In this document: positions 6,878-8,506 of the stretch, piece after piece
How the letters are laid out: each line of letters starts with the position of its first letter
Numbering within the stretch: the stretch's first letter is position 1
From: Candidatus Levybacteria bacterium RIFCSPHIGHO2_01_FULL_41_15
GTDB lineage: Bacteria; Patescibacteriota; Microgenomatia; Levybacterales; UBA12049
Assembly (NCBI GenBank): GCA_001782165.1
Contig: MFNV01000009.1
Coordinates: 1 to 56,122, forward strand
Direction: 5' to 3'
DNA: 56,122 nucleotides
The notes under the pieces: generated by a model
What the model saw: only the letters and a program-made list of their open reading frames with translations
Databases searched by the model: none
Told to the model about the DNA's origin: nothing
Made by a program: the position numbers and the translations under genes

Positions 6878-7330
6878 ATGAAATTAAAGAAATTGATTAA
6901 GGATTATCTTGAAGAGGCAAAGTTGATGCAACTCTCAACTTGCGTTGATAATCAGCCGTGGGTCTGTCATGTTTGGTTTGCTGCTGATGAAAATTTAAAT
7001 ATTTACTGGTTTTCCTCAACTACAAGGCGGCATTCAAGAGAAGTAATGAAAAATCCAAAAGTTTCTGCTGCAATCGTTCTCCCTCACACTCCGGAAGATA
7101 TTCCGAGAGGACTACAGCTTGAGGGAGATGCGCAGCTTCTTACCGATGAGAAAGATATTCAAAAAGCAAGATCTGTTTATGAAGGACGAATATTTTCAAA
7201 AAAAGTGGTTAATGATTTAATAAAGTCCAAAGACTCACCTCATAAGTTTTATAAAATTAAACCAAGAGCATTTGTACTTTTCGATCTGGTAAACTTCCCG
7301 GAAAATCCCCGACAAGAATTAGAATTCTAA
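6878..7330 (+). CDS. Pyridoxamine 5'-phosphate oxidase-like (PNPOx-like split-barrel) protein
   Basis: MKLKKLIKDYLEEAKLMQLSTCVDNQPWVCHVWFAADENLNIYWFSSTTRRHSREVMKNPKVSAAIV..., typical of the PNPOx-like fold. Start moved from the ORF-track start to ATG 6878. Confidence 0.8.
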   Translation: MKLKKLIKDYLEEAKLMQLSTCVDNQPWVCHVWFAADENLNIYWFSSTTRRHSREVMKNPKVSAAIVLPHTPEDIPRGLQLEGDAQLLTDEKDIQKARSVYEGRIFSKKVVNDLIKSKDSPHKFYKIKPRAFVLFDLVNFPENPRQELEF

Positions 7331-7331
7331 A

Positions 7332-7370
7332 TTACCACCTGAAGTGGGCGAAGGCGCGGTTGACTCTCCA
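7332..7370 (-). pseudogene. Residual 3' end of an rpsG gene (S7 C-terminal tail)
   Basis: Minus-strand translation WRVNRAFAHFRW* matches the S7 C-terminus; the intact rpsG at 8033 ends in EANKAFAHFRW*. The conserved nucleotides differ only at synonymous positions. Confidence 0.75.
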
Positions 7371-7392: not shown

Positions 7393-7421
7393 TTGACAGA
7401 CTATAAATCTCTCGTTATGAT
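7393..7421 (+). promoter_or_regulatory. Sigma70-type promoter of the yerC-like gene (TTGACA-17-TATGAT)
   Basis: TTGACA at 7393-7398, 17-bp spacer, TATGAT at 7416-7421. Confidence 0.75.
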
Positions 7422-7450
7422 AAGTCTAATAATCTAAATCATTAGACTTA
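7421..7450. promoter_or_regulatory. Palindromic putative operator, copy 1
   Basis: TAAGTCTAAT-AATCTAAATC-ATTAGACTTA: perfect 10-bp arms, immediately downstream of the -10 element and covering the expected start site. Confidence 0.65.
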
Positions 7451-7456
7451 ATAAAT

Positions 7457-7897
7457 ATGTCTCAGGTTTCGAGAAGAACACTCTCAAAAAACGTGGAAAA
7501 GAAAATGTATTCTATCTTTTTTAATGCATTGGCTCGATTATCAAACCCTTCAGATATTCAAGATTTTATTCTGGATCTTTTAGGACCAGCTGAACAAACA
7601 ATGCTAGCAAAAAGACTTGCAATCGCTGTTCTTCTGGTAAAAGGTTATCAGTATGAAACCATTAAAGATATTCTTAAAGTTTCACAGGAAACTATTGCGA
7701 GAGTAAATATGATGCTCAATTTTAGAGGTAAGGGATACAATATTGCGATTAAAAGAGTGCTTCGAGAGGAAAAGTTAGAAGATTTATTTAAAGTAATCGG
7801 AGATTCAGCCGTTGGAATTCTTCTTGAATCATCTATAAAAAGGTCTCTTAGACGAGAAAGAAAAAGAACAAGGAAACCCAAAACTGCCTTGGGATAA
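7457..7897 (+). CDS. YerC/YecD-type TrpR-like transcriptional regulator
   Basis: 146 aa with FFNALARLSNPSDIQDFILDLLGPAEQTMLAKRLAIAVLLVKGYQYETIKDILKVSQETIARVN, typical TrpR/YerC HTH. Confidence 0.85.
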   Translation: MSQVSRRTLSKNVEKKMYSIFFNALARLSNPSDIQDFILDLLGPAEQTMLAKRLAIAVLLVKGYQYETIKDILKVSQETIARVNMMLNFRGKGYNIAIKRVLREEKLEDLFKVIGDSAVGILLESSIKRSLRRERKRTRKPKTALG

Positions 7898-7901
7898 GTT
7901 T

Positions 7902-7927
7902 AGTCTAATAATCTAAATTATTAGACT
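7902..7927. repeat. Palindrome copy 2 (same family as the yerC operator), or bidirectional terminator
   Basis: AGTCTAATAA-TCTAAA-TTATTAGACT: perfect 10-bp arms. AGTCTAATAATCTAAAT[C/T]ATTAGACTT is shared with copy 1 apart from one base. Confidence 0.7.
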
Positions 7928-8032: not shown

Positions 8033-8506
8033 TTACCACCTGAAATGAGCGAAAGCTTTATTTGCTTCTGCCATTCTGTGGACAACGTCTCTTTTTTTAA
8101 TTGCTTCTCCTTTGTTTTCTAAGGCATCCAGAAATTCTGCTGCAAGTTTTTCAGAAAATGTATGATAGTCTTTGTTGGACCTTCTGCGTGCCGCCTGTAT
8201 AAGCCACCTTATTGCAAGCGATGTTCGTCTGTCCCCTCTTACTTCAACAGGTATCTGATAAGATGCTCCACCCACTCTTCTTGCCTTAACTTCCTGTCTA
8301 GGTTCAATATTTGAGAGCGCTTTTTCAAAAACCTCAAGAGCATCTTCCCCCTGTTTTGAGATGTTTTCCAAAGCATTATAAAAGACTTTCTGAGCAACGG
8401 TCTTTTTTCCATCGCGCATCAAGTTGTTTATGAACTTCGTTGCGAGTTTGCTTCTGTAAATCTTGTCCGGCTCAGCTTGTCTTTTCCCTGCTTTCTTATG
8501 TCTCAT
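8033..8506 (-). CDS. rpsG: 30S ribosomal protein S7
   Basis: MRHKKAGKRQAEPDKIYRSKLATKFINNLMRDGKKTVAQKVFY...MAEANKAFAHFRW. Confidence 0.97.
   Translation of the reverse strand: MRHKKAGKRQAEPDKIYRSKLATKFINNLMRDGKKTVAQKVFYNALENISKQGEDALEVFEKALSNIEPRQEVKARRVGGASYQIPVEVRGDRRTSLAIRWLIQAARRRSNKDYHTFSEKLAAEFLDALENKGEAIKKRDVVHRMAEANKAFAHFRW

Follow-up and report, generated by a model that had tools for sequence, protein, structure and literature searches.

Organization of the yerC locus

The yerC locus lies in a window of 56,122 nucleotides (the whole stretch of DNA analyzed) from Candidatus Levybacteria bacterium RIFCSPHIGHO2_01_FULL_41_15. On the plus strand, a -35 box TTGACA (7393..7398) and a -10 box TATGAT (7416..7421) are separated by a spacer of 17 bp, and the same geometry precedes the homologue in genome G056. 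The upstream palindrome P_up (7421..7450, no strand assigned) reads TAAGTCTAAT-N10-ATTAGACTTA and is a predicted YerC operator. Its first base is the last base of the -10 box, and it extends over the expected start site. The yerC-like gene (7457..7897, plus strand) encodes 146 aa and is identified by profiles and a structure model as a long-form TrpR-family member with a basic C-terminal helix. A second predicted YerC site, the palindrome P_dn (7902..7927, no strand assigned; AGTCTAATAATCTAAATTATTAGACT), starts 4 bp past the yerC stop codon and carries the asymmetric CTAA center in the same orientation as P_up. The two palindromes are the sole matches in the window at up to three mismatches, and shuffled sequence gave none. 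The sequence-only reading had described both a TTGACA-17-TATGAT promoter overlapped by a palindrome and a near-identical palindrome after the yerC stop, and both were verified at these coordinates.

The locus is bordered by two copies of the same gene end. On the left, a PPOX/pyridoxamine-oxidase-like gene (6878..7330, plus strand; PF01243, with synteny in genome G005) is followed by an outer copy of the rpsG 3' end (7332..7364, minus strand; VNRAFAHFRW*), recognized by a 21-nt ungapped repeat shared with the rpsG tail. On the right, comparison with this outer copy sets the border at the functional rpsG 3' end (8033..8065, minus strand). The gene itself, rpsG for 30S ribosomal protein S7 (8033..8506, minus strand), has orthologues in 66 of 73 family genomes and is the likely target of the insertion. 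Going outward from yerC, the unit of ~700 bp has on each side a palindrome, then ~100 bp, then a gene end. Between the rpsG repeats, no open reading frame of at least 50 aa was found besides yerC and one opposite-strand frame overlapping yerC.

The product of yerC is a TrpR-superfamily protein by profile and fold. The Pfam profile PF01371 matches at 53.8 bits against a cut-off of 27 (E=2e-14), in agreement with the initial description of a yerC/trpR-like gene, and the NCBIfam profile yecD_yerC (TIGR02531) is barely over its threshold (42.9 versus 42.2 bits). All 33 members of the set of relatives A1 match PF01371 at E<=0.01. The AlphaFold model (pLDDT 84.7) shows the TrpR fold plus a long extra C-terminal helix, and the best Foldseek matches are the YerC/HisR-like structures 3kor, 3frw and 3g1c as well as E. 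coli TrpR. No nuclease, recombinase or transposase domain was recognized by Pfam in the 33 relatives or by Foldseek with the YerC model.

Paired palindromes across the subfamily

The GTDB family of this bacterium was sampled through 73 genomes, and the flanks of the homologues collected there were examined, with a pair counted only if it was better than all of 30 shuffles. Matching palindromes before the start and after the stop codon were found at 64 of 75 homologue loci. The palindrome upstream of yerC relatives, the conservation of which had been proposed as a check, is kept, with a sequence that differs by paralog. The center of the upstream site lies mostly at -13 to -30 from the start codon and that of the downstream site mostly at +6 to +37 from the stop codon. 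Proteins at paired loci have a median length of 147 aa. In other families of the class, 18 of 23 loci carry pairs, about 14 of them convincing. A relative with 41% identity (L011) has CCATTGATTTAAATCATTAAAAC on both sides of the gene. A second long-form YerC paralog in the present genome (L016; G000 C10:42868-43251) has its own, different pair of CTAATATACTAGTATATTAG and a near-copy. Other genes at these loci have nearby palindromes some seven to nine times less often. In other Patescibacteria, most YerC genes of the canonical ~100-aa length have no pair.

Among short relatives (L189, L193, L195, L197 and the L190-L192 group), those of TrpR carry an upstream ACTAGT-type palindrome and those of YerC an upstream CTTTA..TAAAG palindrome, in both cases with no clear downstream partner. 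Another TrpR-like subgroup (L194, L198) has GTTGTCTAGACAAC-type palindromes on both sides. Some small genomes hold multiple paralogs, with 10-11 homologues in G036 and 8 each in G030 and G125, and two paralogs stand in tandem on G036:C37. Pseudogene relics were rejected, as the flagged internal stops were, where read, the own stops of intact shorter relatives within the aligned stretch.

Sites match proteins and overlap promoters

Upstream and downstream copies agree on average at 17.9 of 20 positions within a locus, compared with 9.5 between loci. Site similarity is correlated with similarity of the recognition helix (Mantel r=0.50, p=0.002), and the partial correlation with the N-terminal part held constant is r=0.34. 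The correlation is partly due to common ancestry. A TTGACA-like -35 box occurs 18-25 nt before the center of the upstream site 26 times in 55 loci, a spacing that places the -10 box inside the site. The same search at the downstream site returned only 3 and 2 cases on the two strands. The ATG often follows directly after the upstream site. At the present locus and at the G056 homologue, the -10 box abuts the site rather than lying inside it. The upstream arrangement is, as far as sequence can tell, the layout of an autorepressor.

Autorepression through a cognate palindromic operator was the simple hypothesis of the sequence-only reading. Conservation, the paired sites and the overlap with the promoter strongly support this prediction. 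The generality of the pairs, the helix-linked site similarity, the promoter overlap and the lack of a pair at most short YerC genes together make predicted autorepression well supported. YerC would be a homodimeric TrpR-fold protein recognizing a palindrome of 26-28 bp on either side of its own gene. Bound to P_up, it would cover the -10 and start region and repress its own transcription.

The downstream site is present where the next gene is convergent (16 of 21 loci) as well as where it is co-directional (38 of 53). Being kept whatever the direction of the next gene, the site is not simply the operator of that gene. Where an asymmetric center reveals the orientation, the two copies face the same way at 21 of 22 loci, several of which share ancestry. 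The second copy had been explained either as a second operator or as a hairpin terminator. It stands as a second predicted cognate site, constant across the subfamily rather than peculiar to this locus; the RNA hairpin or terminator was rejected, with no T-run after the palindrome and no bias of G-U over A-C on the sense strand. We infer that the downstream site acts as a roadblock, in looping or in both: YerC on P_dn would probably stop transcription from reading through or, jointly with the first site, clamp the unit. Across 55 paired loci, changes between the upstream and downstream copies hit both arms together 31 times versus 12.7 expected under independence, as if the palindromes were corrected or selected for symmetry.

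Solitary copies of the palindrome

The 728-kb genome contains exactly five copies of the 20-bp core, identical or one base off, and no weaker copies at up to 3 mismatches. The genome search suggested earlier thus returned the two copies flanking yerC and three solitary ones. One of these lies upstream of lepA, another separates tyrS from recG, and the third falls where dedA-like and GDPD genes converge at their 3' ends. At the small open reading frame on the recG side, the site lies ~19 nt before the ATG, a spacing as at yerC. None of the five sites is at a his gene; their neighbors are yerC, lepA, tyrS/recG and dedA/GDPD.

The identical 26-mer is found alone in several genera at unrelated and mostly 3'-end positions, and genomes G049 and G053 have solitary sites with no cognate long-form yerC found. 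Solitary palindromes elsewhere (L117, L118, L112, L113, L012, L013, L014, L119) lie mostly within ~40 nt past unrelated stop codons, and the stop codon of sufS falls inside one. Another lies within the fmt coding sequence (L109:1548, G056 contig C27). The length of this fmt is unchanged relative to E. coli Fmt. Insertion of the palindrome into fmt was rejected given the unchanged length, and substitution is likelier. A palindrome found mainly at unrelated 3' ends had been named as a sign of a terminator or repeat. This sign is partly present, since solitary copies do lie mostly just past unrelated stop codons, but the paired sites follow the lineage of the protein. Solitary sites may be operators, captured sites or remnants.

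Duplicated gene ends and genomic context

The outer rpsG tail adjoins the PPOX gene directly and has the same orientation as the real tail at the right border. Of 33 nt, 9 are different between the two copies, and most of these changes are synonymous, which indicates that the copies diverged in separate lineages while both were coding. With the rpsG tail of the relative G004, the outer copy shares 31 of 33 nt. Either copy may have come with the element, as the functional tail is no more divergent from its relatives than the remainder of rpsG. In G005, PPOX adjoins rpsG and the cassette is absent. A different subfamily in G042 (site TATACATGTATA) is also bracketed by two rpsG tails, independently of the present case.

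Directly duplicated gene ends (score of at least 40) were found at 8 of 54 paired loci and inverted ones at 0 of 54. Among 119 control genes, 7 were set aside as indexing artefacts; of the 112 usable ones, 1 reaches a score of 40. The duplicated ends include tails resembling tsaD and peptidyl-prolyl isomerase, and a recF tail at the DNA level. Duplicated 5' ends were found in G037, G028 and G023. Most paired loci have no detectable duplicated gene end. Most species are represented by a single genome, and the genomes are of MAG grade.

Homologues occupy different locations. The nearest one (G056, from another genus) lies between ruvB and fabZ with identical promoter-site geometry. Neighboring genes are mostly differing housekeeping genes, and 150 of 250 are unique. 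Some orthologues are fixed at recR - yerC - DUF59 in several genera, as vertically inherited genes would be, and this stable position indicates that insertions can be old. A viral or plasmid origin was rejected: neither the three scans of IMG/VR nor plasmids yielded relatives, and gut phage records gave only three weak matches (about 30-36%).

A proposed cassette at gene ends and its alternatives

We suggest that the autorepressed TrpR-fold gene and its cognate palindromes are probably a horizontally spread cassette that inserts at gene ends. The promoter, the two sites and the gene would make up a self-contained cassette about 0.7 kb long. Its spread among Patescibacteria would have proceeded by insertion into conserved genes at the 3' end or, sometimes, the 5' end. 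Insertion would duplicate the gene end and leave the host gene, here rpsG, intact. The cassette reading draws on what genome comparison shows: sites come in pairs, go with their proteins and overlap promoters, gene ends are duplicated, a relative has the locus empty, and close homologues lie in different places. The route of movement might be recombination, either host-driven or protein-assisted. Because no nuclease, transposase or recombinase signature was recognized, self-driven movement of the cassette is without support. A bolder version would see here a class of minimal mobile elements, widespread in this class of Patescibacteria, in which a single TrpR-type protein and its two cognate palindromes insert at essential gene ends with duplication of those ends, have no recognizable nuclease or recombinase, and where the protein or the sites are active in the spread. 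We put this version forward tentatively and hold it to be somewhat doubtful.

The locus could also encode an ordinary transcription factor that regulates itself and a small regulon, a reading that we consider unlikely. The five copies would then be operators, P_dn would serve looping or the next gene, and the unit would have moved by ordinary horizontal transfer and illegitimate recombination. The operator overlapping the promoter fits such a regulator, as do the TrpR/YerC relatives with an upstream palindrome only, the yerC-like spacing of the solitary site before the recG-side frame and the autoregulation of HisR in many genomes (PMC9413887). However, P_dn is as common before convergent as before co-directional genes and has no promoter, solitary sites lie at gene ends and even within fmt, next to unrelated genes in different genomes, and neighbors are not shared while duplicated gene ends recur. 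A structural repeat or bidirectional intrinsic terminator with no link to the protein would accommodate the several solitary copies just past stop codons, one of them between convergent genes, and the excess of symmetric differences between the copies of a locus. It is nevertheless very improbable given the absent T-tract, the A-T-rich stems, the lack of a sense-strand G-U excess over A-C, the upstream copy overlapping a promoter, and paralog-specific sequences related to the recognition helix.

Palindromes might alternatively be mobile ends moved by the protein as a transposase, in the manner of REP/RAYT systems. The palindrome-bordered gene with few solitary copies resembles REPtrons (PMC8266576), and the direct orientation of the paired copies at nearly all informative loci is in line with such movement. 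Yet the HUH/Y1 domain is absent and the TrpR fold alone is present, 50-120 bp separate the palindromes from the duplicated gene ends beyond them, this genome has just three solitary copies, and the copy in fmt preserves length rather than being an insertion. We judge this explanation very unlikely. Palindromes as transposon ends in general were rejected because the duplicated gene ends lie beyond them.

Relationship to known systems

No published description of this arrangement was found in the open-access literature. YerC of Firmicutes is HisR, a short TrpR-family histidine repressor that binds 20-bp palindromes and is often autoregulated (PMC9413887). The present genes share with HisR/YerC and TrpR repressors the fold, a palindromic site and a predicted autoregulatory site at the promoter. 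In contrast to HisR/YerC proteins of about 100 aa, the proteins here have about 146 aa and a long basic C-terminal helix. The palindrome spans 26-28 bp instead of 20 bp and a second site lies past the stop codon. Many paralogs per genome have their own sites, no site among the five is at a his gene, and the context appears mobile. REPtrons are palindrome-bordered genes encoding HUH transposases (PMC8266576). RAYT/TnpA_REP genes are likewise small, bordered by protein-specific palindromes and accompanied by few dispersed copies, but here no HUH transposase is found, solitary copies are few and the palindromes lie inside the unit borders. The present genes thus appear to be neither HisR proper nor REPtrons, and rather autorepressor-like within a mobile-looking, superficially REPtron-like unit.

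Free-standing homing endonuclease genes are also single-gene units beside conserved genes that spread horizontally and leave the host gene intact. Unlike in those, no nuclease domain (HNH, GIY-YIG, LAGLIDADG etc.) was detected here, and the native gene end is duplicated rather than simply co-converted. Integrative elements using tyrosine recombinases at 3' ends are similarly flanked by two direct copies of the 3' end of the target gene, but the unit here is about 0.7 kb, has no recombinase gene and occurs at many different targets.

Patescibacteria are streamlined, yet some genomes hold around ten genes of this kind, every one with a predicted site of its own. The matched protein-site pairs provide a natural series for understanding how TrpR-type recognition helices read DNA. 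If mobile, the cassette would represent a selfish unit of very small size that lacks any known movement enzyme, located at the ends of ribosomal and other essential genes, and it would raise the question of how such units spread.
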